Source: Pseudonocardia kunmingensis (GTDB lineage: Bacteria; Actinomycetota; Actinomycetes; Mycobacteriales; Pseudonocardiaceae). From it: DNA of 64,000 bases. Positions 4,859-54,239 of this stretch are shown piece by piece. The notes under the pieces are model-generated. The model was not told the DNA's origin and made no database searches. It worked only from the letters and a program-made list of their open reading frames with translations. The position numbers and the translations under genes are program-made. How positions within the stretch are numbered: the first letter of the stretch is position 1; every line of letters begins with the position of its first letter. The stretch spans positions 186,001 to 250,000 of the forward strand of contig NZ_VFPA01000003.1 in the NCBI RefSeq assembly GCF_006716445.1, read 5' to 3'.

Positions 4859-4867
4859 CCGGCGGCC

Positions 4868-5515: not shown

Positions 5516-5590
5516 GGTTCCCATCGTCCTGCGAGCGGTCCGGGCGTGCCCACCAACCCCGCCGCGCGTCGACGACCTACCTTCCGACAC

Positions 5591-6607: not shown

Positions 6608-6801
6608 GAGCCGTCGTCCGGCTGGCGTCGGGAGGTGGCCGACGATCTGGACGACGTGGCGCGGCTGCTCGCAGGGCCGGTCGCCGGCCTCGATGATTGC
6701 TGGCCGCCGTGCACCAGGTCGAGCGGATCCGCGACGCGAGCCCGGGACACACGGGACGACTGCTCGACGCACGTCGGCTTCCTGCACCAGGATCCGGGTT
6801 C

Positions 6802-7404
6802 GTGGCGGCCGCAGACCTGGGACCGTGGGAGCCGGCGACCGTCCGCGAGGTCGCCACCTACTTCGCACGCTTCCCGGGGCCGTGGTGGATCGCGGGCGGG
6901 TTCGCGATCGAGCTGGCCACGGGACGCACGATCCGTCCTCACGACGACATCGACGTCGGGCTCCTGCGGTCCGACCACCTCGGCGCGCACGGTGCCCTTC
7001 CGGGCTGGGAGCTGTGGGCCGCGGACCCGCCCGGGCAGCTGCGGCCGTGGAGGCAGGGCGAACCGCTGCCGGCGCACGTCCACGACGTCTGGTGCCGGCC
7101 CGGCGCCGCGTCCCCGTGGCGCGTCCAGCTGATGATCGACGAGTCGGACGGGCCCGACTGGGTGTCGCGACGCGATCCCCGCCTCCGCCGCCCGGTCCGC
7201 GAGCTCGTCCGCAGGTCCGCCGACGGGATCCCCTTCCTGGCGCCGGAGGTGCAGCTGCACCACAAGGCGAGGGCGTGCCGGCCCAAGGACGTCGTCGACC
7301 TGCACGCCGCCCTCCCGGTCCTCGGTCCGGCCGAACGCGCGTGGCTGCGGGAGGCGATCGCGGGCACGACGCCGGACCATCCCTGGCTCGTCCTGCTGCA
7401 GTAG
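6802..7404 (+). CDS. Nucleotidyltransferase-fold protein (aminoglycoside adenylyltransferase-like)
   Basis: A 200-residue protein with the minimal nucleotidyltransferase signature: WWIAGGFAIELATGR followed by RPHDDIDVGLL, where the two aspartates bind metal. Later VQLHHKARACRPKDVVDLHAALPVL is the C-terminal helix seen in the AadB/LinB-like and uncharacterised relatives. Known relatives adenylylate aminoglycosides or lincosamides; most chromosomal actinobacterial members have no tested substrate. GTG at 6802 is chosen with a weak AGGA upstream; the frame stays open to a TTG at 6697, so the N-terminus is uncertain. Confidence 0.75.
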   Translation: MAAADLGPWEPATVREVATYFARFPGPWWIAGGFAIELATGRTIRPHDDIDVGLLRSDHLGAHGALPGWELWAADPPGQLRPWRQGEPLPAHVHDVWCRPGAASPWRVQLMIDESDGPDWVSRRDPRLRRPVRELVRRSADGIPFLAPEVQLHHKARACRPKDVVDLHAALPVLGPAERAWLREAIAGTTPDHPWLVLLQ

Positions 7405-7505
7405 CACCGGCCGCTGACGGAACGCACCGGCGCACGCGCACCCACCGGGCGGGAAGCGCCGGGCGGTGATTGCGTTACCGGGTGCCCCCCGGGGAAGGTC
7501 GCACC

Positions 7506-9170: not shown

Positions 9171-9259
9171 GGCCGCTCACCGAACCGCTGGTCCCGGAAT
9201 CCGGCCCGGCGCGGTGTTGCGCTTGTTTGACCCGGTTGCGATCGCGGAAACTCGGGGAC

Positions 9260-9598
9260 GTGAGTGAGAACACGGGAGTGGACCTGCGACTCGACGAGGC
9301 CGGGCTGGCTGCCGAACTGCCCCGCCCCGCCCATCTGCAGGACCAGATCCAGGACGTGCCGTTCCGGCCGGTCCAGTTCCGCGACGACGACCTGCCGACG
9401 GCGCTGGAACGCGCCGCCGACTGGTTGCGCCGCGTCGAGTCGTGGCTCGGTGAGCCGGTCGACGTCATCGCCATCCACCTGGACTACGACGACGCCGACG
9501 GCTCCCCCTACTACGAGGTGAAGCTGCTCTGCAACGACGAGGACCTGGCGGGCGCGCCGGTCGCGCTGCGAGCGGCCCAGGAGGGTGCCCCGGGCTGA
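9260..9598 (+). CDS. Hypothetical acidic protein, 112 residues
   Basis: I do not recognise a family. The product is acidic, with a run LERAADWLRRVESWLGEPVDVIAIHLDYDDADGSPYYEVKLLCNDEDLAGAP that reads like a real soluble alpha/beta domain with coding-like composition. GTG 9260 is the likely start; an ATG at 9227 is in frame. The gene is followed by more than 1 kb of non-coding, repeat-rich DNA. Confidence 0.5.
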   Translation: MSENTGVDLRLDEAGLAAELPRPAHLQDQIQDVPFRPVQFRDDDLPTALERAADWLRRVESWLGEPVDVIAIHLDYDDADGSPYYEVKLLCNDEDLAGAPVALRAAQEGAPG

Positions 9599-9702
9599 CC
9601 GGGAGCACATCAGCCGGCGGGTGCGGATCGGAGCAGGGACGGCACAGGCAGCACCGTCCTTGCTCCGGCGCGCCTTCCGGTCTTCTCGCCGGGTGATCGC
9701 CA

Positions 9703-9746
9703 GAAGTGGTGTGAGGGCGACAGATCTGTCGCCCTCACACCACTTC
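9703..9746. terminator. 44-bp perfect palindrome, probable bidirectional terminator
   Basis: Both 22-base arms match exactly with no loop, centred on AGATCT at 9722-9727. Each arm reads GAAGTGGTGTGAGGGCGACA plus GA. It lies 105 bases after the stop of the preceding gene. A hairpin of this strength would stop transcription in either direction. There is no U-tract, which is common for actinobacterial terminators. Confidence 0.6.
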
Positions 9747-9764
9747 CACTGATCATGGCCGTTC

Positions 9765-9784
9765 GCGCGTTCCGCGGAACGCGC
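9765..9784. repeat. 20-bp perfect palindrome
   Basis: GCGCGTTCCGCGGAACGCGC is self-complementary over all 20 bases. It lies 18 bases after the 44-bp palindrome and 14 before the next hairpin. Its role is unknown; it could be a protein-binding site or part of a compound terminator. Confidence 0.6.
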
Positions 9785-9798
9785 CCGTGCACGACGCG

Positions 9799-9846
9799 GT
9801 CGACGTCATGGGTCTTCGGCCGCGTGTTCAGACCCATGGTGTCGAC
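9799..9846. repeat. Imperfect 17-base-arm hairpin
   Basis: The arms at 9799-9815 and 9830-9846 (GTCGACGTCATGGGTCT and its near complement) pair in about 15 of 17 positions around a 14-base loop. The core CATGGGTCT/AGACCCATG is perfect. A related ccatggtgtcga stretch occurs beside repeat A2 near 59.3 kb, which suggests this hairpin belongs to the outer end of the repeat. Confidence 0.45.
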
Positions 9847-9863
9847 GTGGTCAGGGGATCTCC

Positions 9864-10118
9864 CTGTGGGCGCGCCGTTCCCGACTCGAGACCACCGCCT
9901 CCCGCCCCGTCGGGGTCTTCGCCGCAGTCGCCGCCTTCCCCGGTCCCTGCCCGTCGGCGAGGTGGCCTGGTTGGCTCAACTACCGAATATCGTGGCCGGC
10001 CGGGCGGCCGTTCCCGGCATGGCCCAGGCCTGTTCGGGACGAGTCCGTCGCTGCTGGGTGGGTGCGCACCTGGCGGTGGTCCCGTTGCGCCCGGTCATGA
10101 TCGAGGTGTCGGCGCGTT
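9864..10118 (+). repeat. Repeat family A, diverged copy (A3)
   Basis: This copy aligns along its length to A2 in the same orientation: both begin with gggcgcgccgttcccg, share the ctaccga/accaccga and catggccc blocks, and end with catgatc...gtcggcgcgtt. It is clearly more diverged than A1 and A2 are from each other. It runs tail to tail into A1 across about 20 bases. No coding capacity is shared. Confidence 0.6.
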
Positions 10119-10137
10119 ATCGGGCGTTTTCAACACG

Positions 10138-10570
10138 CGAACGCGCCGACTTGCTGATCATGAGGTCGGGGCGCCCGGGTGATCTGCTGGTGTCGGGCAG
10201 GACCGTGTCGAAGGGGTTCGGGAACGGCACCACAGCCGGTGGAGCCGCACCCGGCGGGGACGGGCTCGTCGTGGACCGGCCGGGGCCATGTCGGGGACGG
10301 CCGTCAGGGCGACCACGTCACTCGGTAGTTGTGCCCACCCGGCCACCCTCGCCACCCGGGGGTGGGCCGGGCGCCGGGTGACTGCAAGTGATGCCTGGAA
10401 CGGGGGCGGGGCAGCGGTCTCGAGCCGGGAACGGCGCGCCCACGCCAACCCGCCGCACGGGGCGCCACCACGGCGCCTGGTCGGGTGGGCTCACGCCCCC
10501 CGTGTCCGGGCGCGCCCCCTGATTCGTCGCGCGCGACCCGTCGACGGGGTGCGCGGGCGCAGACGGGGGG
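10138..10570 (-). repeat. Repeat family A, copy A1
   Basis: The reverse complement of this segment matches 58885-59292 nearly base for base over about 400 bases, apart from a ~25-base insertion near 10500-10530. Shared blocks include gggcgcgccgttcccggctc, ccgacatggccccggccggt and the end catgatcagcaagtcggcgc. No frame is kept open in both copies as a plausible protein, so it behaves as a dispersed non-coding repeat. Confidence 0.8.
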
Positions 10571-10707
10571 CGTGGGCTCGGGCGCCGGAGGACCGGCCGC
10601 TGCACGACCCGGTGAACGTCGGCGCGGCCACCGCGCGATAGTGTCAGTTCCGGTGTGCCGGGAAGTCTGGTCGGCGGTCTGCTGCCGACCCCTCCCGAGG
10701 AGCCACC

Positions 10708-12006
10708 GTGAGCCCACCCCGCATCCGTTCGCTGCTGGACCGCCGTAGCTGGCCCGAGATGCGGCGCATCAGCGACATCCTCCGGGCCGAGACGGTCGGT
10801 GGGGTCCTGCTGGTGATCGCTGCCGCGGTCGCGCTCGCCTGGGCGAACTCGCCGTGGGGCGACGGATACCGGGCGCTGAGCGAGCTGCGCCTCGGGCCGG
10901 CCGCGCTGCACCTGGACCTCACCCTCGCCCAGTGGGCCGCCGACGGCCTGCTGGCGATCTTCTTCTTCGTGGCGGGGCTCGAGCTGAAGCGCGAGTTCGT
11001 CGCCGGGGACCTGCGCGACCCGGCGAAGGCGGCGCTGCCGGTCGCGGCCGCCGTCGGCGGGATGGTGGTCCCCGCGGTGATCTACATTGCGTTCAACGCG
11101 TCGGCGCCGGGGGGCGCGCTGTCGGGGTGGGCGATCCCCACCGCCACCGACATCGCGTTCGCCCTCGCCGTCCTCGCGATCATCAACACCCACCTGCCGG
11201 CGGCGCTGCGCACGTTCCTGCTGACCCTGGCCGTCGTCGACGACCTCCTGGCCATCGCGATCATCGCGCTGTTCTACACCGACTCGCTCGCGCCGGTGCC
11301 GCTGCTGCTCGCGCTGGTCCCGCTCGGGCTGTTCGCGCTGCTGGTGCAGCGGCGCGTCCGGTCCTGGTGGCTGCTGCTGCCGCTGGCGGTCGCCACTTGG
11401 GTGCTCGTGCACGAGTCCGGGGTGCACGCCACCGTCGCCGGGGTGCTGCTCGGCTTCGCCGTGCCGGTCATCCGGCGCAAGCCCGGCCCCGGGCCTGGCC
11501 TGGCCGAGCACTTCGAGCACGTCTTCCGGCCGCTGTCGGCCGGCGTCGCCGTGCCGGTCTTCGCCTTCTTCGCGGCCGGTGTGTCGCTGTCCGGAGCAGG
11601 CGGTCTGGGCACCACGATCTCCGACCCGGTGGTGCTCGGCATCGTCACCGGGCTCGTCGCGGGCAAGGCCATCGGCGTGTTCGGCGCCACCTGGCTCGTG
11701 CAGCGGTTCACCCGTGCCCGGCTGGCCGAGGGGCTGAGCTGGTGGGACGTCCTCGGGCTGGCCCTGCTCGCCGGCATCGGGTTCACCGTGTCCCTGCTGA
11801 TCGGCGAGCTCGCCTTCGGTGCAGGCAGCGAGCGCGACGAGCACGTCAAGATCGGTGTCCTGACCGGGTCCCTGCTCGCCGCGCTGCTGGCGACCGTCGT
11901 GCTGCGCAGCCGCAACCGGCACTACCGCCGCATCTGCGCCGAGGAGGAGCGCGACACCGATGCGGACGGCATCCCCGACGTCTACGAGGAGCAGGAGCGC
12001 CGGTAG
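10708..12006 (+). CDS. nhaA: Na+/H+ antiporter NhaA
   Basis: A 432-residue membrane antiporter that exchanges internal Na+ for external H+ at alkaline pH. About 11-12 transmembrane segments are visible. The ion-binding aspartate pair is in [13 protein letters not shown], and [14 protein letters not shown] carries the discontinuous helix with its conserved [19 protein letters not shown] and [19 protein letters not shown] are further NhaA landmarks. The GTG start at 10708 follows GAGGAG. The C-terminus extends past the last helix as a short charged tail ending [14 protein letters not shown], an acidic EF-hand-like loop not needed for transport. It stands alone behind a long repeat-rich leader. 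Confidence 0.96.
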
Positions 12007-12049
12007 GGCGGCGCTCCCGAGGACGACCCCGGGCCCCGGCCGGGAACGC

Positions 12050-13075
12050 TCAGAGCTCGCGGCCCTTGGCGCGTTGCTGCCGCCCCTGCTGCCCGTACGG
12101 GTAGGCGCCGACGATCGGTTCGCTGGCCTCGTCCAGCAGCTGCGTCTCCTCCTCGGACAGGTGCAGGTCCGACGCGGCCAGGTTGTCGTCGAGCTGCTCG
12201 ACGGTGCGGGCACCGAGGATCACCGACGTCACCCCGGGCCGGTCCGCGGTCCAGGCCAGTGCCACCTGCGCCATCGACACCCCGCGCGACTCGGCGACCT
12301 TGGCCACCGCATCGATCACCTGCCAGGTGCGCTCCTGCGCGTTGCGCGGCGTGTAGGCCTCCATGCCCCGCTCGGGGTCGTCGCCGAGCCGGCTGGCCCC
12401 CGTGGGGACCTCGTCCCGGCGGTACTTGCCGGTCAGCCAGCCCCCGGCCAGCGGCGACCACGGCAGGATTCCGATGTTCTCGTTCTCGCAGACGTCGGTC
12501 AGCTCGAACTCGATCTCGCGGACCAGCAGGTTGTACTGCGGCTGCAGGGTGACGATCGGCGCCAGGCCGAGGAACCCGGTGAGCATCGCGGCCTTCTGCA
12601 GCTGCCAGCCCAGGAAGTTGCTCACGCCGACGTAGCGGATCTTGCCGGCCCGCACGGCGTCGTCGAGGAAGCGGAGCGTCTCCTCCGGCGGGGTCAACCC
12701 GTCCCACGCGTGCGCCTGGTAGAGATCGACCGAGTCGACCTGGAGCCGCCGGAGGCTCGCGTCGAGCGCACGGGAGAGCGCCACGCGGCTCAGTCCGACG
12801 TCGTTGACCCCGGCACCCATCGCGAAGCGCGCCTTCGTCGCGACGACGACCTGGTCGCGGGCCTCCGGACGCTTCTTCAGCCAGCGTCCGACGATCTCCT
12901 CCGAGAGGCCTCGGGAGTAGACGTTGGCGGTGTCGACGAAGTTGCCGCCCCGTTCCAGGAACCGGTCCAGCTGCGCGTGCGACACCTCCTCGCTGCTCTC
13001 GTTACCGAACGTCATGGTGCCCAGGCACTGGGACGACACGATCGTTCCGGTCCCGCCGAGCGTGCGATGTTCCAT
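12050..13075 (-). CDS. Aldo/keto reductase
   Basis: A 341-residue NADPH-dependent (beta/alpha)8 oxidoreductase. The catalytic tetrad is readable: FVDTANVYSRGLSEEIVGRWL gives Asp and Tyr, VVVATKARF the Lys, and DLYQAHAWDGLTPPEETL the His. The cofactor-binding end is GVTSVILGARTVEQLDDNL. It belongs to the YghZ/tas-like group of general carbonyl reductases. It faces nhaA tail to tail across 43 bases, and its start faces the TOPRIM gene. The substrate is unknown. Confidence 0.94.
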   Translation of the reverse strand: MEHRTLGGTGTIVSSQCLGTMTFGNESSEEVSHAQLDRFLERGGNFVDTANVYSRGLSEEIVGRWLKKRPEARDQVVVATKARFAMGAGVNDVGLSRVALSRALDASLRRLQVDSVDLYQAHAWDGLTPPEETLRFLDDAVRAGKIRYVGVSNFLGWQLQKAAMLTGFLGLAPIVTLQPQYNLLVREIEFELTDVCENENIGILPWSPLAGGWLTGKYRRDEVPTGASRLGDDPERGMEAYTPRNAQERTWQVIDAVAKVAESRGVSMAQVALAWTADRPGVTSVILGARTVEQLDDNLAASDLHLSEEETQLLDEASEPIVGAYPYGQQGRQQRAKGREL

Positions 13076-13142
13076 GCGCCCATCCTGCCGCCTCCCCGGG
13101 AACGGGGTCGAACCGCTCCGGGTTCGGTGCGAGGGTGGACCC

Positions 13143-13748
13143 GTGACCGACACGCGGACCGTGGTCCTGGTCGAGGGGGCCAGTGACGAGTCGGCCGTCG
13201 CCGCCCTGGCGAGGCGCCGTGGCCGGGACCTCGCGGCCGAAGGCATCGCCCTCGTGGCCATGGGCGGTGCCACGAACATCGGGGCCCACCTGCGCCGGTT
13301 CGGCCCGTCCGGTCGCGGTCTCCGGCTGGCCGGTCTGTGCGACGCCGGGGAGGAGCGCGGGTTCCGGAGGGGACTCGAACGCGCCGGTCTCGGCACCGAC
13401 CTCGACCGCGACGACCTGGAGGCGCTCGGGTTCTTCGTGTGCGTCGCCGACCTGGAGGACGAGCTGATCCGGGTACTCGGCACCGACGCGGTCGAGCGGG
13501 TCGTCGCTGCCCATGGCGAGCTCGGCTCGTTCCGCACGCTGCAGAAGCAGCCCGCGTGGCGCGGGAACGACACCCACGACCAGCTGCGCCGGTTCATGGG
13601 CTCGGGCAGCGGTCGCAAGATCCGCTACTCGGCCGCGCTCGTCGCGGCGCTCGATCTCGATCGCGTGCCGCGCCCGCTGGACATGCTGCTGACCCACCTG
13701 TCGCCCGGAGCGGCGGTTGCCCCTCAGCCCCAGGTCAGGAACCGGTAG
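13143..13748 (+). CDS. OLD-type TOPRIM domain protein
   Basis: A 201-residue protein that begins with VVLVEGASDESAVAALARRRG, the glutamate-containing TOPRIM loop, and continues with LAGLCDAGEERGF, where the TOPRIM aspartate motif would be expected. This places it with the small stand-alone OLD-like TOPRIM proteins, which are nucleases or nucleotide-binding proteins; the usual ABC ATPase half of OLD nucleases is absent. GTG 13143 is the start. Its 3' end overlaps the convergent folA gene by 25 bases. Function is unproven. Confidence 0.7.
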   Translation: MTDTRTVVLVEGASDESAVAALARRRGRDLAAEGIALVAMGGATNIGAHLRRFGPSGRGLRLAGLCDAGEERGFRRGLERAGLGTDLDRDDLEALGFFVCVADLEDELIRVLGTDAVERVVAAHGELGSFRTLQKQPAWRGNDTHDQLRRFMGSGSGRKIRYSAALVAALDLDRVPRPLDMLLTHLSPGAAVAPQPQVRNR

Positions 13749-14197
13749 TGCAGCCCGGTCGTCGACTCCTGCCACTCCCCCACCGAGTCCGGTGGGCGCC
13801 CGACCTCGGGGGCGTGGGTGTCGCCGTCGAAGTGCTCCCGGATCTCGGTGACGACGATGCGGTCCGCGAGCGGCAGCGCCGCCCGGTACACCGCCGCGCC
13901 GCCCATCACCCAGACGTCCCCGGACACCGCGGCGAGCGCCTGCCGCAGGTCGGGGAAGACCTCGGCGCCCTCCTCCTCCGCGCCCGGCTGCGGGGTGCGC
14001 GAGAGGACGAGGTTGCGCCTGCCCGGTAGCGGCCGGAACCGCGGCGGGAGCGACTCCCAGGTGCGACGGCCCATGAGCACGGTCGCACCCGCGGTCAGGG
14101 TGCGGAAGTGCTTCATGTCCTCGGGCAGGTGCCAGGGCAGCGCGCCGTCGCGGCCGATGACGCCGTTCGCCGACTGCGCCCACTCGACGCCGATCAC
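13724..14197 (-). CDS. folA: Dihydrofolate reductase
   Basis: A 157-residue enzyme that reduces dihydrofolate to tetrahydrofolate with NADPH. Diagnostic parts are [22 protein letters not shown] (Met20 loop with the catalytic acid in PEDM), [21 protein letters not shown] and [25 protein letters not shown]. The GTG start overlaps the stop of thyA by four bases. The two form the classic thymidylate cycle pair: ThyA consumes methylene-tetrahydrofolate and FolA restores tetrahydrofolate. Its tail overlaps the convergent TOPRIM gene. Confidence 0.97.
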
Positions 14198-14991
14198 ACC
14201 GCCACCGGTGCCTTGATGGCGGGGTGCGGGTCGTATCCGTCGAGCACGATGTGCTCGAAGGTGTAGTCGAACAGGCTGTCCGCCGGCTCGAGGTTCACCG
14301 TGGGGAACGGGCGCGCCTCCCGTGCGAGCTGCGTGCGGACCTGCTCCTCGTGGTTGTCGTAGACGTGGCAGTCGCCTCCGGTCCAGACGAAGTCACCGAC
14401 GTCCAGGCCCACCTGCGCGGCGATCATGTGCGTGAGCAGGGCGTAGCTGGCGATGTTGAACGGCACGCCGAGGAACAGGTCCGCGCTGCGCTGGTAGAGC
14501 TGGCAGGAGAGCGTGCCGTCGGCGACGTAGAACTGGAAGAAGGCGTGGCACGGCGGGAGCGCCATCCGCGGGATGTCGGCCACGTTCCACGCGGAGACGA
14601 TGATCCGCCGGGAGTCGGGGTCCTCGCGCAGCGCGCGCAGCACCTCGCCGATCTGGTCGACGTGCCCGCCGTCCGGGGTCGGCCACGACCGCCACTGCAC
14701 CCCGTAGACCGGCCCGAGGTCGCCGTCCGGTGCCGCCCACTCGTCCCAGATCGTCACGCCGTGCTCCCGCAGCCACGTGACGTTCGCGTCGCCGCGCAGG
14801 AACCACAGCAGCTCGTACGCCACCGAGCGGAAGTGGACCTTCTTCGTCGTGATCAGCGGGAACCCGTCGGACAGCCGGTAGCGCAGCTGGTGACCGAAGA
14901 TCGAGCGCGTGCCGGTGCCGGTGCGGTCCCCCTTGCGGGCGCCCGTGTCGAGCACGTGGCGGAGCAGGTCTTCGTACTGCGTGTCCGGCAT
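14194..14991 (-). CDS. thyA: Thymidylate synthase ThyA
   Basis: A 265-residue enzyme that methylates dUMP to dTMP. It has the N-terminal [18 protein letters not shown] phosphate-binding arginine loop, the catalytic cysteine at about 148 in [13 protein letters not shown], and [25 protein letters not shown], which binds dUMP. The length is the short ThyA type. It is translationally coupled to folA downstream. The ATG is at 14991. Confidence 0.98.
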
Positions 14992-15025
14992 GCCCGCGAG
15001 CCTAAGCGAGCGCGGGATCCGCCCG

Positions 15026-15670
15026 TCACCTCCGCCAGAACAGGTGGTGGGTCACGCCGCTCGGGCTGGGCACGACCTCGAGGTGGAACCGGTCACGCAG
15101 CTCGTCGGGCGACTCCCAGAGGCGCACGCCGGAGCCCAGCTCCACCGGTGAGACCGCCACGTGCAGGGTGTCGACGAGGTCGGCGTCGAGGAACTCCCGG
15201 ATGGTGGTGGCGCCGCCGCCGAGCCGGACGTCCGCACCCTGCGCGGCCTCCCGCGCCCGCTCGAGGACCGTGGCCGGATCACCGCCGACGAAGTGGAACG
15301 TGGTGTCGGACAGGGTGAACGACGGACGCTCGTGGTGGGTCAGCACGAACACCGGGGTGTGGAACGGGGGCCGGTCACCCCACCAGCCGCGCCAGTCGTG
15401 GTCGCGCCAGGGGCCGCGCTGCGGGCCGAACTTGTTGCGGCCCATGATCTCGGCGCCGATGTTGTGGGCGAAGTCCCGCGTGAAGTAGTCGTCGAGACCG
15501 CGGCTCCCGCCGGGCTCGGTGCGGTTGGGCCAGCTCGCCGTGGCGCCGGCCCACGCGATCAGCTTCCCGGGGTCGGCGTGCCCGAACGGCCTCTCGAGGC
15601 TCTGGTGCTCACCGGCACCGAACCCGTCACGCGACACGGTGAAGTTCTGGACCTTCAACAGCTGGCTCAC
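15026..15670 (-). CDS. RibD C-terminal/dihydrofolate-reductase-fold protein
   Basis: A 214-residue stand-alone reductase-fold protein. Landmarks are [25 protein letters not shown] and [36 protein letters not shown], the GG motif and closing strand of the RibD_C domain. The GTG start at 15670 has a strong AGGAGG 8 bases upstream. Despite lying next to folA-thyA it is not a second FolA: such proteins are common uncharacterised NADPH reductases in actinobacteria. Confidence 0.9.
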
Positions 15671-15793
15671 GCGGTTCCTCCTGCGCTCGTGGGGATGACG
15701 GCATCGTCCCGACAACGGCGGCACCGGGTTCCGGCGCCACCGGAAGACAGTCGGAGCCGGCCCGGCCGTCTCGACATCACCACGGCAGGCGAC

Positions 15794-17011
15794 TCAGCCA
15801 CCGGGCGGTGTTCCGGGCGTGGAGTCCTTGACGAACGCGATCCCGTCCACGCCGGCCAGGCGCGCCGGGTCCAGCGGGGCGTAGCCGAACCAGGGTGACA
15901 CGCGGGGTGCGGGCGCCGCCCCGCCGAGGACGGCGGCCAGCCGGCGGGCGTCGACGAGGTACCGGTCCTCGGGGAGCGCGTAGAGGAGCCCCTCGACGGT
16001 GTCCGGGGGCGGCGTCTCCACCCCGTGGTGGCGGATCGTGCCGAGGGCCGTGGCCAGGAACGCGTACCCCTCGCCCAGCCGGGCGCTGACGATCGCCCCG
16101 GCGCTCCACCACTCCACCGGGCCCTGCCACATCTGCATCGTGCTCTTGTCCCGCTGCAGGTGGGCGTTGTGGGCGTGCACCAGCGTCGGGCCCCGTTGGG
16201 CGAGGGCGAGCAGGTTGGCGGCCATCATCGAGGACCGCCCACCCAGCAACCGCACCATGCGGCTCGGTGACGTGTCCGCCATCCAGAGGTGGTAGCGCAG
16301 CAGCCCGGTCGCGGTGCGGCCGTACGTGCGCGCGCGGTCCCATTCCTCCCGGGAGGAGGCCGCGATCAGGTGCGGCGTCTGCGCGTCGAGCACGGCCACC
16401 AGCTCGTCGGCGAGGAGCCGCAGCTGTGCGACCTCGGGCGTCGACCCCACCGACCGGGACGGGTCCATCATCGCGGCGGGCTCGGTCCACCGGTCGTCGG
16501 CGCCGAGCAGGTCGTCGAGCGTCTCGGCGGTGCAGGGAAGCAGGTCGGCGTCACCCCGGGCGGCGAGGTAGGCGTGGAGCGCGGTGAGGGCCTGCCGGGG
16601 GCTCGCGGCGCCGGTGATCTCCAGCGGGCCGTCGAACCCGGCGAAGCGCACCTGCTCCGAGACGTGCCGGCCGTCGTTGTACGCGCGCATCCAGCGCACC
16701 AGCTCGCGGTTGGCCGCGGACCCGCCGAACCCGTGGCTGAAGCCGCGCTCCACGACCTCGTCGAGCGTGCCCGCGCCCGAGGTGACGTAGTCGTCCACGA
16801 GCAGGCCGCTCATGCAGTCGCTCTCGATGGCGATCGTCCGGTAGCCCTCCTGTTCGACGAGCTGCCGGAAGAGGTCGTTGCGCAGGTCGAGCAGGACGTC
16901 CTCGCCGTGCGTGGGCTCACCGAGCGCGAGCAGCCGCGGCCGGGCCGGCACCAACCCCATGACGGAGGCGGCGTCGACGACGAGGGCGGCATCCGTGACA
17001 GCAGCAGTCAT
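15794..17011 (-). CDS. Erythromycin-esterase-like protein
   Basis: A 405-residue member of the erythromycin esterase superfamily. RLLALGEPTHGED carries the catalytic-base glutamate/histidine, TIAIESDCMSGLLVDDYV the second glutamate, and GPTLVHAHNAHLQRDK the histidine motif. Known Ere enzymes open the macrolide lactone, but most chromosomal relatives in actinobacteria act on unknown esters or succinoglycan-like compounds, so resistance should not be assumed. The start ATG at 17011 has no close neighbour gene on its strand. Confidence 0.88.
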   Translation of the reverse strand: MTAAVTDAALVVDAASVMGLVPARPRLLALGEPTHGEDVLLDLRNDLFRQLVEQEGYRTIAIESDCMSGLLVDDYVTSGAGTLDEVVERGFSHGFGGSAANRELVRWMRAYNDGRHVSEQVRFAGFDGPLEITGAASPRQALTALHAYLAARGDADLLPCTAETLDDLLGADDRWTEPAAMMDPSRSVGSTPEVAQLRLLADELVAVLDAQTPHLIAASSREEWDRARTYGRTATGLLRYHLWMADTSPSRMVRLLGGRSSMMAANLLALAQRGPTLVHAHNAHLQRDKSTMQMWQGPVEWWSAGAIVSARLGEGYAFLATALGTIRHHGVETPPPDTVEGLLYALPEDRYLVDARRLAAVLGGAAPAPRVSPWFGYAPLDPARLAGVDGIAFVKDSTPGTPPGG

Positions 17012-17234
17012 GCCTTCGACGGTATCGTTGAACCAACTAGGAAAGGTTTCGCGCGATCTCAGCAGGACGGCAAGGATGAACCCTCAAAACGGGGTTCATG
17101 CCGGAATCGTCGTCGGGGCTCAGGCACGGCGCTCGGGCAGGACTCCGATGCCGGTCGCCGGTGCCGCAGTAGGCCGGCTCGGTTCACCCCGCCCTGTCCG
17201 CGGCGCTGAGTGGCCTGACGCCGAGGATCGGACG

Positions 17235-17489
17235 TCAGTTCGCGTCCGGACGCTTCCTGGGCTGTCCCAGCTGCGCGAGCACGTCATCGAGATCGAAGCG
17301 GAACTGTCCCCCGGGCGTGGTGGCGGCCGGTGTGACCCGCCCTTCCCGCACCCACTCGCGGACGGTCTCGGGATGCACCTGGAGGTGCCGCGCCAGCTCA
17401 CGCGTGGTGATGAGCGGGCGGCGACCGGTGGGCACCGTTCGACGGTAGGTAGAGCTTCCTGTCTCTGGTAGTTGTTCCCGGTCACTCAC
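17235..17489 (-). CDS. Small excisionase/MerR-type helix-turn-helix protein
   Basis: An 84-residue protein with one winged helix-turn-helix: LITTRELARHLQVHPETVREWVREGRVTPAATTPGGQFRFDLDDVLAQLG, the arrangement shared by BldC-like, MerR and excisionase domains. There is no effector domain. The GTG at 17489 is chosen because it leaves a 36-base divergent region shared with the next gene that carries repeated half-sites. It probably regulates itself and that neighbour. Confidence 0.75.
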   Translation of the reverse strand: MSDREQLPETGSSTYRRTVPTGRRPLITTRELARHLQVHPETVREWVREGRVTPAATTPGGQFRFDLDDVLAQLGQPRKRPDAN

Positions 17490-47985: not shown

Positions 47986-48306
47986 GCCGTCCTCTTCTGC
48001 GATCCGCGAATGGAGCTGGGGCTGTCCGCTGCGGTCGAGCGTTGGCACTCGATGGCGGCCCCGGCGCGGTCGGTGCCTTTGATCGTCTTGCTCGGGTACC
48101 GGTCTCGGCCGGTGACCGGGCCCTGGCCCGCGCAGACCCGCATCTGCAGAGAGCCGCTGCGCTCGCGGATGCTCCCGCGCCGCCATCACCCGCCGCCGGC
48201 GTTTGCGCTGGTCATCGGGGCAGCGCAGGCCGCTCGTTCGTGGACGCAAGCATGGACGAGCAGGTCGGAAGAATCGCTGGATGAGGAAGTTCCTGCTGCT
48301 CAGAGG
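47986..48306. other. Gene-free stretch between phzF-like gene and tRNA-Met
   Basis: Frames are open on several strands but none reads like a protein and none has a ribosome binding site. No strong hairpin or repeat is seen. It may be decayed coding sequence. Confidence 0.5.
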
Positions 48307-48381
48307 TGGGGCGGGTGGGGTTCGAACCCACGACCTGACGGATTATGAGTCCGCTGCTCTGACCAGCTGAGCTACCGCCCC
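48307..48381 (-). tRNA. tRNA-Met (anticodon CAT)
   Basis: The minus strand folds as a complete tRNA: acceptor stem GGGGCGG pairs with CCGCCCC at 48308-48314, the D-loop reads AGCTCAGCTGGTCAGAGC, the anticodon loop CTCATAA sits between GGA and TCC, and the T-loop is GGGTTCGAACCCC. With a C at the wobble position the gene could encode elongator Met or lysidine-modified Ile; the acceptor resembles actinobacterial Met genes. The CCA end is not encoded. No att-like repeat of its 3' end is seen nearby. Confidence 0.93.
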
Positions 48382-49152
48382 GGGGGAGGCGAGACTACCC
48401 CGCCCGGCCTCCGCCGCGGTCGACGCCGGAGATCGACGTCACGGTCGACCCGCTGACCGACCAGGGGTGGACGGCCGACCTCGCCGGGCCTGCCTGCGCC
48501 GCCCCCGAGAAGCCGGTGACGGAGCGCTCGGCACCCGGGGGAATTGATCGTTGCGAGATCGACGTGTGCGCCCTGCCGGGGGGGCGTTCGGCTCGATCTC
48601 GGATCGATCGATCGTCGCGAGGCCGAGCTGTTCGCCCCTGGCGGGGCGATCCGGCGGACCTCGCTGCGATCTTGCCGCCCGCTCCGTTCCTCCGACGCAT
48701 CGTCCCGAGGTCCGACAGTGCGCGTCCGGCGCGGGGAACTGGGCCGTTCGGGGTGCCGCCGCAGCTGCAGGTGTGACCCCACTCCCACTGCCCGACCATT
48801 CGGCTCTACGCAGAAGTGCGTACATCGCGAATTCCGCCGCCGCCACCGGATGCGTAAGCGTCACCGCGGGAGTCGCACAAAGCGCTTTCCGGTGTCGGTC
48901 CGTCACAGCAGAGCCCGCTGTGGTTGCTCCCGATGTGCGTCGCCCGACTGGCGGGCAGACGGCGGCTCCACTCCTGCGCGACCCTGTCCGTCGCCTCGAT
49001 CGGGCGGTTCCGGTTCGCGGAGTCGCTCCGCGCTGGAACCGCATATGTGGACGCCGGCCGCTTCCGTGCCGCGTGTCGCAGTTCGGCGGACCGTTGTGCC
49101 TTCGACCGGCACCGGCGCCGCCATCCGGGTTGTGCAGAGACTGGAGGACGTC
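48382..49152. other. Upstream region of the metacaspase, with repeat B2
   Basis: No convincing gene. It holds repeat B2 (48545-48690) and about 460 bases of leader before the metacaspase GTG. Frames in this stretch are open on both strands but not protein-like. Promoter sequences of the protease cassette probably lie here. Confidence 0.55.
48545..48690 (+). repeat. Repeat family B, copy B2
   Basis: 146 bases nearly the same as 28038-28182, same orientation. Shared blocks are gatcgttgcgagatcgac, ctcgatctcggatcgatcga, cgagctgttcgccc and gctccgttcc. It lies 460 bases upstream of the metacaspase and 164 bases from the tRNA-Met gene. Flanks differ from those of B1. Confidence 0.8.
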
Positions 49153-50745
49153 GTGGCGCGTGGCATTTCCATTCAGATCGGGATCAACAACGTCGATCCC
49201 GCGGTCTACGGTTCGCCGCTCACGTTGCGCGGGTGTGAGAACGACGCGCGCTCCATGCGCGGGCTGGCCGAAGCGGCCGGCTTCGACATGGCGGCCTCGA
49301 CCATGCTGCTCTCCCCCGCGGCGACGGCGGGCGCGGTGGCCGGGGCGATCAGGGCGGCGGCCGCCCGCCTGCGCGGGGGCGACCTGCTCTTCCTGACCTA
49401 CTCCGGGCACGGCGGGCAGGTGCCGGACCCGACCGGGACCGAGCTCGACGCCAAGAACGAGACGTGGGTGCTCTACGACCGCCAGCTGCTCGACGACGAG
49501 CTGAACATGCTCTGGTCGGAGTTCGCGCCGGGCGTGCGGATCTTCGTCCTCTCGGACAGCTGCCACAGCGGCACGGTGGTCCGCGACGTCGACGGCACGC
49601 TGTACGACAGCACCCGGCGGGCCACGCTGAACGCGCTGCCCGTGCTCACCAGGGACCTCGGCGGTCTCGACCTCCCCCAGCCCGTGACGAGGGACCTGCC
49701 GTTCCTGGTCCAGGCGCGGGTGTACCAGGACAACAAGGCGTTCTACGACGGGATCCCGCGTGCCAAGGACGTCACGGCGGCGGCGTCGGTGCTCCTGATC
49801 AGCGGCTGCCAGGACAACCAGGTGTCCCTCGACGGCTCGGTCAACGGGCTGTTCACCGAGAAGCTGCTGCAGGTGTGGAGGGCCGGTTTCAGCGGCGATC
49901 ACCCGGGGTTCCGGGACGCCATCGCGGCACTGCTCCCCCCGACGCAGTCCCCGAACTTCTACACCACCGGCGCCGCCTCGCTGCCGTTCCAGCGACAGCG
50001 TCCCCTCACCGTGGCGGCTCCGGTCACGGCCGCCGCACCGGTGGAGCACCACGCGCCGGCCCAGCCTTCCGGGAGCACCTGGATGGATCGGCTCCGACTC
50101 GAGTTCGGGAACATCTGGAAGGAGAACGGCATGACGCAGAGCGCCAACGGTGCCCAGGAGAAGTGGTTGGAGTTCATCCCCGTCGTCGTCGACCTCGGAC
50201 TGCAGGTCGTCGATGCGTTGTCGAAGGAGGGCTACCAGATCGAGAACGGTTCCGGGCAGAAGCTCGTGGCCACCAGGGATACGGCCGGCGGGGAGAAATG
50301 GCTGCAGTTCATCCCCCTCGCGATCAGCGTCGGCGCTCAGGTGTACGACGCGCTCAGCAAGGAAGGGGCGCTGCCGCCGAGCAAGCAGGTGGCGCTGCCC
50401 AAGGACATCTCGGCGGAGTCCACGAAGGGCTGGCTGGACCTCATCCCGATCGTCCTCAACCTCGGGAGCCAGGTGCTGAACGCGGCCACCAAGGAGGGTT
50501 TCGTCGATTCCGGCAACGGATCGCCGATGCCGAGCCTCGAGGACCCGGACGCGAAGGGCTGGATGGATCTCATCCCGGTGGCCCTCGAGATCGGGACGCA
50601 GATCTACAACACGCTGACGAAGTCGACGGCCACCACGACCGGGATGCCGGTGCGGTCCCTCGGTGACGCCGCGGCCGGCGGGCCGGTCGCCCGCGAGGTC
50701 GTCGCCTCGTTCGGCAAGCAGGTGCTCGAAGCCGCCCGGATGTGA
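49153..50745 (+). CDS. Metacaspase (C14 caspase-fold) with four C-terminal repeats
   Basis: A 530-residue protein. Residues 5-280 are a caspase-like protease: ISIQIGINNVDP, ENDARSMRGLAEAAGF, then the catalytic histidine at 86 in LTYSGHGGQ and the catalytic cysteine at 137 in LSDSCHSG; DNQVSLDG completes the substrate pocket. A linker rich in Pro/Ala (about 285-325) leads to four repeats at 336-360, 381-405, 425-449 and 468-490, each opening with (E/K)(K/G)W(L/M)xx(I)P and ending near KEG. There is no signal peptide or membrane helix. GTG 49153 has GGAGG 5 bases upstream. A strong internal start lies at 50131. Bacterial caspases cut after basic residues and often act in immunity or cell death; the next two genes are also hydrolases. 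Confidence 0.92.
   Translation: MARGISIQIGINNVDPAVYGSPLTLRGCENDARSMRGLAEAAGFDMAASTMLLSPAATAGAVAGAIRAAAARLRGGDLLFLTYSGHGGQVPDPTGTELDAKNETWVLYDRQLLDDELNMLWSEFAPGVRIFVLSDSCHSGTVVRDVDGTLYDSTRRATLNALPVLTRDLGGLDLPQPVTRDLPFLVQARVYQDNKAFYDGIPRAKDVTAAASVLLISGCQDNQVSLDGSVNGLFTEKLLQVWRAGFSGDHPGFRDAIAALLPPTQSPNFYTTGAASLPFQRQRPLTVAAPVTAAAPVEHHAPAQPSGSTWMDRLRLEFGNIWKENGMTQSANGAQEKWLEFIPVVVDLGLQVVDALSKEGYQIENGSGQKLVATRDTAGGEKWLQFIPLAISVGAQVYDALSKEGALPPSKQVALPKDISAESTKGWLDLIPIVLNLGSQVLNAATKEGFVDSGNGSPMPSLEDPDAKGWMDLIPVALEIGTQIYNTLTKSTATTTGMPVRSLGDAAAGGPVAREVVASFGKQVLEAARM
50121..50133 (+). promoter_or_regulatory. Internal ribosome binding site and in-frame ATG inside the metacaspase gene
   Basis: An AAGGAG-like site (ggaaggagaacggc) is followed after 6-7 bases by ATG 50131, which is in frame (codon 327) at the end of the linker. 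Starting here would yield a 204-residue protein made only of the repeat region. This could be a separate product or the mark of an old gene fusion. Confidence 0.45.
50158..50622 (+). repeat. Four protein-level repeats in the metacaspase C-terminus
   Basis: The DNA encodes four copies of a 25-residue motif with a 43-45-residue period (residues 336-360, 381-405, 425-449, 468-490). Each copy reads W-[LM]-x-[FL]-I-P then a hydrophobic run with L-G-x-Q-[VI] and ends in a short basic/acidic pair. The predicted shape is an amphipathic helix. The base sequences have diverged, so the duplication is old. Confidence 0.8.
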
Positions 50746-50755
50746 CGGGCAGCCC

Positions 50756-50796
50756 CCGAACGGCTCCGTCGCGCTCGTCGCGGCGGAGCCGTTCGG
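50756..50796 (+). terminator. Hairpin between metacaspase and S8 protease genes
   Basis: CCGAACGGCTCCG at 50756-50768 pairs perfectly with 50784-50796 around a 15-base GC-rich loop. It begins 11 bases after the metacaspase stop. It could end most transcripts and so lower expression of the two downstream hydrolases, or process the message. Confidence 0.55.
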
Positions 50797-50829
50797 CCGG
50801 TCGCCCCCGTAGGAGGGGACGGAGACGCG

Positions 50830-52668
50830 ATGGCGCTCACCCCGGTCGACCGTCTGGGCGACTACATCCTCGTCACCCTGCTCGCCCGCGACGGGTCCGC
50901 GAGCCAGCCCGAGGTCGTGGACGGCATCCGGCGGGACACGAGGTTGGATCTCACCGCCGAGGACGTCGAGGAGGTCGCCGAGGTCGAGTCGGCGGCGGAG
51001 GGAACCGGCGGGCCACGGCCCGAACGCTGGGTCAACCGCCTCTACGTCGCGCTGCGCCGCCTGATCGCCGCCCAGTGGGTCCGGGCCGACAGCCGGCGCT
51101 GGGAGCTGACCGCGGCCGGGCGGTCCGTGGCGCAGGAGGCCCAGGAACGGATCGTCGCGCCCGGCGAGCGCGCCACCGTCACGCAGCAGCCCGAGGACCG
51201 GACGCTGGTGCGGCCGAGCGTCATGGCCGAACCGCTCCTCGACCCGGACGAACGGGCGCGCATGGGCCTTCCGGTCGACGACGACGCCGTCATCCCGGTG
51301 CTGGTGGAGCTGAACGTCCGGTACCCGGGAGGGGTGGCGGAAGCGCTGGGCCGGCTGCGCGAGGTCGTCGGCGCCGGGCCGGGGCGGGTGGACCCGCTCA
51401 CCGAGGACCTGGTCGCGATGCGCCTGTCGATGAACGACGTGCGGACGCTGCTGCAGCACGACGCGGCGGCACCCACGCCGCGGGAGCGCGCGATCCACCG
51501 CGTGTGGCCGGACTTCCCGGTGCAGCCGCTGATCGACTCGTCGTGCCGGGCGGTCAAGGCGGACGCCGCCCGCCGGGCCTTCAGCGCGCTCGGGGACGGC
51601 GTGGTGTGGGCGGTGGTCGACTCCGGCATCGACCGGACCCACCCGCACTTCCAGCACGGGCTCACGGTCGATCACGACGACGTCCGCGACATGCACCGCG
51701 ACTTCACGGTCTCCCTCGAACCCGGCCCCGAGACGGCGGGCACGGCGCTCGTCGACGAGCGGGGGCACGGCACTCACGTCGCCGGCATCATCGCCGGCAC
51801 CGCGCCCCCGGTCGGCAGCGCAGTCCGCGTCGAGGTGCTGCGTGACCAGTTCGGCGACGCCGATCAGGGCGCGCCGGGTGCCGCGGCGCAGCGGACGTTC
51901 GATCGCGACCTGCTGGCCGGCATCGCCCCGCGGGCGCGTCTGGTGAGCCTGAAGGCGCTGCCCCCGGAGGAGGACGCGGAGTCGAGCCGGGTGATCGCGG
52001 CGCTGCGGTACGTGCGCCGGGTCAACGCCGCCAGCGACCGGCTGATGCGCATCCACGGCGTCAACGTCAGCATCGGCTACGAGTTCGACCCGAAGTGGTT
52101 CGCGTGCGGCCAGAGCCCGCTCTGCCGGGAGGTCGACCGCCTGGTGCGCACCGGCGTCGTCGTGGTCGTCGCCGCGGGCAACACCGGGTACGGCCGCCTC
52201 AGCGCGTTCGTGCGGCAGACGAACACCGGGATCGGCATGACGATCAACGATCCCGGCAACGCGGAGCGGGCGATCACCGTGGGCGCGACGCACCGGGACC
52301 GGCCGCACACGTACGGGGTGTCGTACTTCTCGTCCAAGGGCCCCACCGGCGACGGCAGGGCGAAACCGGACCTGGTCGCCCCCGGCGAGCGGATCGCCTC
52401 CTGCGCGGCCGGCGCGACCGCCGCGGCGCGGATGGCCGGCGGGCGGCCCCCGCACGTCGCGCTCTACGTCGAGGAGAGCGGCACCAGCATGGCCGCCCCA
52501 CACGTGTCGGGCGCCATCGCGGCCTTCCTCTCCGTCCGTCCCGAGTTCCTCGGCCAGCCGGAGCGGGTCAAGGCCCTCTTCTGCCGCACGGCCACGCCGC
52601 TGGGGCGGGAGCGCTACTTCGAGGGCGCGGGCCTGGTCGACCTGATGCGCGCCCTGCAGTCCGTCTAG
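50830..52668 (+). CDS. Intracellular S8 (subtilisin-like) serine protease with N-terminal extension
   Basis: A 612-residue protein. Residues 255-605 are an S8 domain with the triad at Asp264 (AVVDSGIDRTHPHF), His313 (DERGHGTHVAGIIAG) and Ser553 (EESGTSMAAPHVSG); Asn451 (VVAAGNTG) is the oxyanion residue. Residues 10-100 (DYILVTLLARDGSASQPEVVDGI, WVNRLYVALRRLIAAQWVRADSRRWELTAAG) look like a winged-helix Mrr_N-type module, and 150-215 like an inhibitor-like spacer. There is no signal peptide, so it acts in the cytoplasm. ATG 50830 follows GGAGGGGAC. It probably acts with the metacaspase and hydrolase. Confidence 0.93.
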   Translation: MALTPVDRLGDYILVTLLARDGSASQPEVVDGIRRDTRLDLTAEDVEEVAEVESAAEGTGGPRPERWVNRLYVALRRLIAAQWVRADSRRWELTAAGRSVAQEAQERIVAPGERATVTQQPEDRTLVRPSVMAEPLLDPDERARMGLPVDDDAVIPVLVELNVRYPGGVAEALGRLREVVGAGPGRVDPLTEDLVAMRLSMNDVRTLLQHDAAAPTPRERAIHRVWPDFPVQPLIDSSCRAVKADAARRAFSALGDGVVWAVVDSGIDRTHPHFQHGLTVDHDDVRDMHRDFTVSLEPGPETAGTALVDERGHGTHVAGIIAGTAPPVGSAVRVEVLRDQFGDADQGAPGAAAQRTFDRDLLAGIAPRARLVSLKALPPEEDAESSRVIAALRYVRRVNAASDRLMRIHGVNVSIGYEFDPKWFACGQSPLCREVDRLVRTGVVVVVAAGNTGYGRLSAFVRQTNTGIGMTINDPGNAERAITVGATHRDRPHTYGVSYFSSKGPTGDGRAKPDLVAPGERIASCAAGATAAARMAGGRPPHVALYVEESGTSMAAPHVSGAIAAFLSVRPEFLGQPERVKALFCRTATPLGRERYFEGAGLVDLMRALQSV

Positions 52669-52694
52669 CCAGTCGACACGAGGGGAGTGGGGAC

Positions 52695-54062
52695 ATGGAT
52701 CGCATCGCCGGCCTGCCGTTCGGAGAGGTCCCGTTCGACGCCGATGGCGACGTCGACCGCGACGCCGCCCGCGCCGCCGTCTCCGGGCTGCGGGGCGAGG
52801 GCGTCACCGACGTCGTGGTCTTCGCCCACGGCTGGAACAACGACACCGCCGCGGCACGACGGTTGTACGAGCGCTTCTTCGGTCAGTTCCCGGCGCTGCT
52901 CGCGGGACGCACCCGGCCGGGCCGCACCGTCGGGTTGCTCGGCGTGCGCTGGCCGTCGAAGCGGTGGTCGGACGAGCCGGAGCCGGACTTCGACGCCGGC
53001 CTCCTGCCCGCCCTCGACCGCGGTGGCGCGGCCGGTGTCGGCGACCCGCCGCCCACGTTCGCCCCGCCGCCCTGGCCCAGTGCCGCGACCGCGGCGGTGA
53101 TCCGCGAGGCCTTCCCCGACGCCGATCCGAGCGCCGTCGACGAGCTGGTCGAGCTGCTGCGGATCCGCCCACCCGGTGAGGCGGGCCTGCAGCGCGCCCA
53201 CGACCTCGTCACGGGGATGCTGCGCGGCGCACCCGGGCCGGCGTCGGCCGACGACGGCGACGGGGCGGGCGCCTTCCCCGCCGTCGCCGGGTCCGACCGG
53301 AAGGCCCGCGAGGTCGCGCGCAGCTACCTGCAGGAGCTGGAGCAGCTCGGCGTGACGACCTCCGGGCACGGGGGACCCGCCGGGCTCGCCGAGGACATCG
53401 GGCGGCTGTGGCACGGCACGCAGGAGCTGGCCCGCCAGGCCACCTACTGGCAGATGCGCAACCGGGCGGGCGTGGTCGGCGAGCGGGGGCTGGGGCCGTT
53501 CCTCGCCGAGCTGCTCGCCGCGGACATGCAGGTCGACCTCGTGGGCCACAGCTTCGGGGCCCGCCTCGTGTCCTACGCGCTGCGTGCGCTCGATCCCCCG
53601 CAGCAGGTGCGGTCGGTCGTCCTGCTGCAGGGGGCGTTCTCGCAGTTCGCGTTCGCCGACGCGCTGCCCCACGACCCCGGCCGGTCCGGTGCGCTGCGCG
53701 GCGCGCAGGCCCGCGTCGCCGGGCCGGTGATCGCCTGCCACTCGCGCTTCGACGGCGCGCTCGGCACCTTCTACCCGCTCGCGTCGCTGCCCGCGGGACA
53801 GGACGCGGTGATGGTGGAGTCGTTGCGGGAGCGGTGGGGGGCCATCGGCTTCGACGGGCACAAGCCGCACCCGAACCGCACACCGATGCTCGCCCCGGCG
53901 GCGCCCTACACGTTCGCCGCGGGCACCCTGACCAGCATCGACGCCGCCCGGGTCGTCCGCCACGGCCGGCCGCCGTCCGGTGCCCACTCCGACATCGTCC
54001 ACCCCGAGCTGGCGTGGATCGTGCTCTGCGCCGCGGGGCTCATCGCCGACGGGCCGACATGA
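52695..54062 (+). CDS. Alpha/beta hydrolase of the protease cassette
   Basis: A 455-residue hydrolase. The oxyanion turn VVVFAHGWNND is at 41-50, the nucleophile elbow VDLVGHSFGARLVSY puts Ser286 in GHSFG, VVLLQGAFSQFAF follows, and a catalytic His/Asp pair is likely in the C-terminal part (VIACHSRFDGALGTFYPLAS). A large insertion at 90-250 is unusual for the fold and may be a lid or partner site. No signal peptide. It follows the S8 gene by 26 bases, so they are one transcript. The substrate (lipid, peptide or ester) is unknown. Confidence 0.88.
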   Translation: MDRIAGLPFGEVPFDADGDVDRDAARAAVSGLRGEGVTDVVVFAHGWNNDTAAARRLYERFFGQFPALLAGRTRPGRTVGLLGVRWPSKRWSDEPEPDFDAGLLPALDRGGAAGVGDPPPTFAPPPWPSAATAAVIREAFPDADPSAVDELVELLRIRPPGEAGLQRAHDLVTGMLRGAPGPASADDGDGAGAFPAVAGSDRKAREVARSYLQELEQLGVTTSGHGGPAGLAEDIGRLWHGTQELARQATYWQMRNRAGVVGERGLGPFLAELLAADMQVDLVGHSFGARLVSYALRALDPPQQVRSVVLLQGAFSQFAFADALPHDPGRSGALRGAQARVAGPVIACHSRFDGALGTFYPLASLPAGQDAVMVESLRERWGAIGFDGHKPHPNRTPMLAPAAPYTFAAGTLTSIDAARVVRHGRPPSGAHSDIVHPELAWIVLCAAGLIADGPT

Positions 54063-54239
54063 TCGGCGTTCGCGTGCACCCACTGCTGCGTCACCAGCAG
54101 TACGCGCACCCAACCGGCGATCTCGCCGGCGGCGGGGGCCGGGAGCAGCCGAGCGCCGGTTCGCGATGAGTTCGGCCGCCGCCACCGGTCACCCCTGGGA
54201 GGGGCGGTGCCCGCTGCCCCCGCGACCGGAGGGAGATCC

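Follow-up and report, generated by a model that had tools for sequence, protein, structure and literature searches.

IetAS, an anti-phage system, pairs an AAA ATPase with a subtilase, and subtilase-AAA pairs reportedly function as toxin-antitoxin systems in mycoplasmas. The caspase GSU0716 (PDB entry 3bij) presumably originates from Geobacter. Parts of Kaur et al. (2020; PMC7159879) describe VMAP-linked caspases as always accompanied by a neighboring alpha/beta-hydrolase gene, and NucA-trypsin (System 3) conflict systems as able to contain S8 domains. Parts of the report on MaOC1 (PMC7935541), a cyanobacterial caspase homolog, describe cleavage of the antitoxin of a neighboring toxin-antitoxin module and thus offer an earlier example of a caspase that targets the product of an adjacent gene. 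Here we analyze a locus of Pseudonocardia kunmingensis at which the genes for a caspase, an S8 protease (S8), and an alpha/beta hydrolase (ABH) follow one another in this order on the forward strand. The locus lies in a 64,000-nucleotide stretch of contig NZ_VFPA01000003.1 (positions 186,001 to 250,000; here called the window) from a genome of 9.14 Mb. An original prediction, made from the letters of the window, had singled out the three genes as a cassette with a possible role in anti-phage defense or cell death. We found no description of the S8-ABH pair in the open-license literature of PubMed Central, a scope outside which most subscription papers and bioRxiv fall; the word "subtilisin" is absent from the main texts (the parts of these sources considered here) of the 2021 follow-up to Kaur et al. 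(PMC8195603) and of DefensePredictor (PMC13092281).

Conservation of the protease-hydrolase gene pair

The robust result of our analysis is that S8 and ABH constitute a horizontally moving, phylum-crossing two-gene module with a likely regulated protease. A scan of a genome collection with the S8 alignment returned 405 pattern matches, 348 of which encode relatives; the best 80 of the 348 were kept and, together with the window, make up 81 S8 loci (86 with five loci from other genomes). An ABH frame lies directly 3' of S8 on the same strand at 69 of the 73 loci with at least 1 kb of downstream sequence. Six of the eight loci cut short on that side still show part of ABH, and ABH is the next gene at all five further loci. 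The gap between the two genes is 26 bp in the window and has a median of 19 bp (77 gaps, with 5 loci from other searches included). The four loci without an ABH gene directly 3' of S8 are L049, L075, L111, and L101, the last of which, a Phycisphaerae bin, encodes ABH and S8 as one 1,021-residue chain in swapped order (4256-7321). Genes for a HEAT-repeat protein and a peptidyl-arginine-deiminase-like protein lie upstream of this fusion.

The active sites of both enzymes are conserved. All 81 S8 proteins that were aligned have residues D264, H313, N451, and S553 (the aspartate was itself part of the S8 search pattern). Likewise, S286, D353, and H431 of ABH are shared by all 65 ABH proteins in the alignment, which was limited to those longer than 380 aa. 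The pairwise divergences of the two proteins are correlated (Mantel r = 0.69; 41 thinned pairs; 0 of 2,000 permutations as high), a correlation to which shared descent with the hosts contributes.

Tight pairing with mobile spread would also be expected of an antagonistic pair, in which S8 would eliminate ABH (or an inhibitor) as long as cells are unstressed, as with a toxin and its antidote. However, in the L101 fusion, enzyme and protease would be parts of a single polypeptide, and neither enzyme varies in its catalytic residues across the aligned sets; we regard such antagonism as very unlikely. The S8-ABH pair is very probably a functional unit, because its two genes stay closely together in different phyla, on plasmids, and next to a tRNA hotspot (see below), with invariant active-site residues in the aligned sets.

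Horizontal spread and the tRNA-Met site

The S8 records span nine phyla by record title and are intermixed in the S8 tree, in which 80 rows (L101 left out) require 20 changes of phylum label compared with a minimum of 8; some of these rows are metagenome bins whose phylum may be misassigned. S8 relatives also occur on twenty plasmid records (E value up to 1e-50). At all three plasmid loci inspected, ABH directly follows S8, and one of these pairs lies roughly 1.5 kb past the gene for the relaxase, traA. Within the genus, S8 was found in 6 of 62 genomes (E value up to 1e-60), whereas a flanking phosphatase-like gene was found in 58 of the 62.

The interval with the three genes is absent from all three relatives analyzed (L148, L149, and L150). 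Between the aligned ends, from a tRNA-Met gene to a glyoxalase-like gene, the window has 5,850 bp and L148 has 195 bp; in strain MH-G8 (locus L043; equated with genome G695) the same interval holds the three genes together with three further ones. Across the tRNA gene from this interval, L149 carries a tyrosine-recombinase-motif protein and a serine-recombinase-like protein (both recognized by eye) as well as a 44-bp sequence that repeats the end of the tRNA; L148 has further tRNA fragments. The tRNA-Met gene is thus an integration hotspot in these relatives, but the three genes of the window sit on its 5' side. The stretch of L149 from tRNA-Met to the 44-bp repeat, with the recombinase-like genes between (5920-17415), is about 11 kb long and probably represents an integrative element.

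Two other descriptions of the locus were considered. A compositional island was rejected, with G+C contents of 0.71 to 0.76 in the blocks that bear the three genes, as in the remaining window. Searches of viral contigs did not support phage cargo for S8, ABH, or the caspase: no relative came from the ABH alignment (none of 14 pattern matches was confirmed) or from the caspase as a single-protein query (none of 4 was confirmed), and the best 80 matches of the S8 alignment were all distant subtilases with no more than 30% identity. One distant phage record was found for S8.

Predicted domains of the protease and the hydrolase

By its sequence, the window S8 protein is a genuine Peptidase S8 subtilase: it passes the curated Pfam cutoff (E = 1e-44; 153.4 bits versus 21.8) and contains the Asp, His, Asn, and Ser residues. 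No signal peptide was apparent on inspection by eye, in agreement with the original prediction. In an AlphaFold model of the N-terminal 260 residues, helices and a small beta wing form a block at residues 5 to 109 (confidence score pLDDT, 77 to 97, with a dip to 52 to 62 at residues 41 to 60). Foldseek ranked winged-helix proteins (MarR, BpsR, AspA, F93, and Sso10a) at the top for this N terminus, with a best E value of 0.023 and nothing at 0.001 or better, so that the winged-helix label reflects many weak concordant matches. A profile search retrieved a MarR protein at E = 0.011. The Mrr_N family (PF14338) matched the window S8 below its cutoff (16.7 bits versus 29.5) and 7 of 33 S8 relatives at E values up to 0.1 (best, 8.4e-6). 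Many actinobacterial relatives share the N-terminal extension.

Directly before the protease, residues 154 to 227 are modeled as a beta-alpha-beta-beta-alpha-beta domain. The I9-type propeptides of subtilisins have this topology and likewise precede the catalytic domain. The Pfam I9 model did not match the window S8, and Foldseek gave weak matches to acylphosphatase-type folds (E = 0.15 and 0.23); the model of the L101 fusion shows the same order of elements ahead of a mostly confident protease half. The layout of winged helix, propeptide-like domain, and protease, predicted also for many actinobacterial relatives, suggests a regulated zymogen. The proposal that the S8 N terminus may be a sensing part has gained ground, in that its predicted winged helix looks like a sensor or regulator.

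ABH is less readily classified by profile. It passes no Pfam cutoff (weak Abhydrolase_1 match, 18.3 bits versus 25.8), and its profile found no convincing relative in the PDB (best E value, 0.0077, for a dodecin). In a class-level sample, ABH was found in 14 of 246 genomes.

Table 1. Features of the locus, in window coordinates
Feature	Position	Strand	Evidence
Caspase (Peptidase_C14), GSU0716-like	49153..50745	+	GTG start, 530 aa, GGAGG upstream; Pfam C14 and PDB 3bij
Four caspase repeats, ~24 aa each, amphipathic (residues 337-492)	50161..50628	+	Translation, hydrophobic moments; coordinates derived from residue numbers
18-bp hairpin in caspase/S8 gap, terminator- or attenuator-like, no T run	50756..50796	+	Fold versus shuffles
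S8 subtilase, core gene 1 of pair	50830..52668	+	ATG start, 612 aa; Pfam, conserved catalytic residues
Winged-helix-like N-terminal domain, S8 residues ~1-110	50830..51159	+	AlphaFold, Foldseek, Mrr_N match below cutoff
Propeptide-like beta-alpha-beta-beta-alpha-beta domain, S8 residues ~154-227	51289..51510	+	AlphaFold model; L101 model
ABH, core gene 2 of pair	52695..54062	+	ATG start, 455 aa; triad S286/D353/H431 inferred from conservation
tRNA-Met(CAT) adjoining inserted interval	48305..48381	-	Comparison with relatives
Interval missing in three relatives	48382..54231		195 bp between aligned ends in L148

The adjoining caspase gene

The caspase matches Peptidase_C14 (E = 1e-18), and its dyad of His86 (SGHGG) and Cys137 (DSCHSG) is invariant in an alignment of four caspases. 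Residues 1 to 288 match PDB 3bij at E = 1.6e-64 over nearly the whole 285-residue chain. With this similarity across the caspase domain and the His/Cys dyad, the protein is GSU0716-like at the sequence level; an EACC1-associated caspase was rejected (NCBIfam NF047832, 26 bits versus a cutoff of 140). The repeats of the C-terminal half start at residues 337, 382, 426, and 469 (hydrophobic moment, 0.34 to 0.42). This half occurs in 1 of 296 genomes of a phylum-level sample, namely, the window genome, and searches for the full-length caspase with the repeat half gave just the window genome and that of MH-G8. Caspase matches were found in 7 of the 246 genomes of the class sample, with the window genome among the seven. 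The description of three soluble hydrolases with intact active sites, encoded in one direction, is thus borne out.

The caspase adjoins S8 at 2 of the 86 S8 loci (the window and L043; for 5 of the 86, gene calling gave nothing upstream of S8). It was found in 2 of the 62 genus genomes, the same two, next to S8 in both. At Blastococcus locus L077, the S8 protein of which is 75% identical to that of the window, another S8 gene lies where the caspase would be. The trio as a conserved cassette is therefore rejected, and the three-gene neighborhood put forward in the original prediction stands for S8-ABH (69 of 73) and falls for the caspase, which is best read as a lineage-specific addition to S8-ABH in one Pseudonocardia lineage.

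Within the 84-bp gap between the caspase and S8 genes lies an 18-bp hairpin (-55 kcal/mol; z = -3.49 versus shuffles), and since this hairpin separates the two genes, the caspase may be transcribed as a unit of its own. MH-G8 has a 13-bp form of the stem, the fold of which is no better than that of shuffles (z = -0.90). Compared with this one close relative, the ratios of nonsynonymous to synonymous substitution rates are 0.24 for the caspase, 0.12 for S8, and 0.22 for ABH, so that all three genes seem to be maintained by purifying selection.

These observations bear on the idea of a true three-protein cascade in Pseudonocardia, in which the caspase would activate S8 and S8 would activate ABH, akin to the caspase/hydrolase pairing of VMAP systems. 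The adjacency of caspase and S8 in both caspase-holding genomes, the purifying selection on all three genes, and the constant hydrolase neighbor that parts of PMC7159879 ascribe to VMAP-linked caspases would fit it. However, the two copies are closely related, and their adjacency may come from one insertion; moreover, the hairpin lies between caspase and S8, the Blastococcus locus lacks the caspase, and no VMAP-C protein exceeds the cutoff in the genome. A cascade of this kind appears unlikely, and we retain the reading of the caspase as a lineage-specific addition to a two-gene module.

The settings of caspase relatives were inspected in three genomes (L031, L032, and L033) and three plasmids. 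In L032 and L033, they adjoin a NucA-like nuclease, a trypsin-like protease, and NTPase-like proteins (recognized by eye), and the L032 relative is also near an alpha/beta-hydrolase-like protein without significant sequence similarity to the window ABH. A Rhizobium plasmid relative is near annotated trypsin-like and C1 peptidases, and a Rhodococcus plasmid relative has neighbors of other kinds. L031 (8233-15045), of the same class as the window, and a Deinococcus plasmid (L123, 2086-9515) have a row of genes in common, with two large unknown proteins and a GSU0716-like caspase.

Neighboring genes and possible role

We tentatively favor, at somewhat less than an even chance, the view that the two enzymes form a mobile module for stress or immunity, the protease being a zymogen, and that a caspase was added in one lineage. 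This reading is based on the near-invariant gene order, the swapped-order fusion, the conserved catalytic residues, the correlated divergence, the patchy distribution, and the occupied or empty tRNA site.

The neighbors of the pair were sampled after 19 near-duplicate loci and the window had been dropped. The near set comprised 103 genes, chosen manually among the first 150 of the 210 that were eligible (loci up to L108, with the L043 caspase left out), and the far control comprised 103 of 142 genes. Pfam assigned near neighbors to animal heme peroxidase (5), SIR2_2 (4), Peptidase_S8 (3), Endonuclease_NS (2), and FRG (2), with several of these possibly contributed by one locus; none of the five families reached two members in the far control, for which single-member families are not all listed. 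The co-occurrence with defense islands that had been proposed as a check was not borne out: PADLOC (E value up to 1e-10) gave fewer families near the pair (10) than far from it (46), counted as families rather than proteins, and a defense island by this measure is unsupported. A defense role, as first suggested, is still plausible from the mobility of the pair and from its SIR2, NucA, and FRG neighbors.

SIR2-like genes adjoin S8-ABH in different phyla (L062, 3838-7813; L063, 10952-12514; L042, 7926-9557), one gene each in L062 and L063 being assigned by Pfam and the others by eye. A heme-peroxidase cluster lies beside the pair in 12 loci, in several arrangements and mostly in related mycobacteria (three members were checked by Pfam). 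Animal heme peroxidase genes next to S8-ABH, in three arrangements, were seen in Pseudonocardia and mycobacteria (L054, 712-2496; L070, 4766-6559; L065, 5600-7411). Very large proteins are encoded at or near S8-ABH in Williamsia and Nocardia (L056, L060, and L073); those of L056 and L060 have 1,230 and 975 aa, and one contains LysM domains. Around the trio itself, the neighbors are unrelated and no nucleotidyltransferase gene was noticed, as the original prediction had stated.

Such neighborhoods can also be read as those of a metabolic or maintenance module, an accessory catabolic pair in which S8 and ABH would degrade particular proteins and esters (e.g., storage or xenobiotic lipids) and the caspase would be incidental. 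Many near neighbors are metabolic (oxidoreductases, enoyl-CoA hydratases, and aldehyde dehydrogenases), the pair on Rhizobium johnstonii plasmid pRL11 sits between an ABC transporter and thiamine genes, the heme-peroxidase cluster would fit lipid oxidation, and PADLOC families are not enriched. On the other hand, no non-core neighbor cluster occurs in more than 13 of the 86 loci, and the predicted regulatory winged helix with its zymogen-like layout, the SIR2, NucA, and FRG neighbors, and the strong patchiness within the genus all argue against such a module. We consider the metabolic explanation possible but short of probable. Between a defense or death role and an accessory metabolic role, the balance is about even, and the former is a reasonable lead.

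Besides the PADLOC result and the metabolic neighbors, several observations weigh against a stress or immunity module built on S8 and ABH. Four of the six S8 proteins of the first alignment (same class or family), the starts of which were assigned by script, are without the winged helix, which is thus not essential, and the S8 propeptide may act merely as a folding chaperone. Loci L049, L075, and L111 have downstream room yet no ABH at all. Conversely, of the 14 genomes in the class sample that have ABH, 11 (all from a single genus group) show no S8 relative within 1.5 kb of it, which indicates that ABH can work alone; in seven of these 11, fetched with wide flanks, ABH lies in a broadly shared setting without S8. 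Finally, the L101 model is confident in the S8 half, but its ABH half is mostly below a pLDDT of 50 and no S8-ABH interface is seen; this poor half is probably due to badly aligned ABH rows.

If the pair is a stress or immunity module, the predicted winged helix of the window S8 could serve as a DNA- or ligand-responsive regulator, while the folded propeptide-like domain would keep the protease inactive. A stress or invader signal would lift this inhibition, and the active S8 would process or release its partner ABH. The serine triad of ABH would then attack some component of the cell, an ester or lipid being the likeliest target, and this would slow or kill the cell or disarm the invader. The caspase might be an extra upstream trigger or an extra effector, and its amphipathic tail may bind to membranes or to a scaffold. 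A more elaborate form of this reading is a phylum-crossing mobile immune or programmed-death module, in which a zymogen protease that senses DNA or a ligand licenses a serine hydrolase as effector and individual lineages have added further death enzymes such as a caspase, SIR2, a second subtilase, or a heme peroxidase; we consider it less likely than not. If the pair proves to be an immune or death module, bacterial immunity would gain a mechanism in which a protease licenses a hydrolase, and the locus would illustrate how such modules recruit caspases.

Comparison with known systems

The window caspase resembles GSU0716 in that its caspase domain matches across nearly the whole 3bij chain, and differs from it by an added C-terminal half with four amphipathic repeats. 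With the VMAP ternary systems, as described in parts of PMC7159879, the locus shares neighboring caspase and alpha/beta-hydrolase genes, whereas the window hydrolase has an S8 protease as its fixed partner. Membership in these systems was rejected on the VMAP-C core protein (PF20028), for which the window genome has no match over the cutoff and one weak match (19.6 bits versus 27), in a search that did not extend to vWA and MoxR genes. The combination of several peptidases with nucleases that parts of the same source describe for NucA-trypsin (System 3) systems is echoed by the neighbors of the L032 and L033 caspases and by the 2 Endonuclease_NS genes among the 103 near neighbors of S8-ABH; unlike in those systems, a nuclease or trypsin gene was not noticed beside the window trio. 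IetAS membership was also rejected, because the IetS model scores below its cutoff and no AAA ATPase gene is directly adjacent. IetS models match only part of the window S8 (NCBIfam NF042956, 42.1 bits versus 900; PADLOC IetS, best E value of 2.8e-15), and the direct neighbors of S8 are the caspase and ABH by Pfam (the wider window was not searched with an IetA model). Like IetAS, the module described here is a two-gene unit containing a subtilase, but the partner of its subtilase is an alpha/beta hydrolase.

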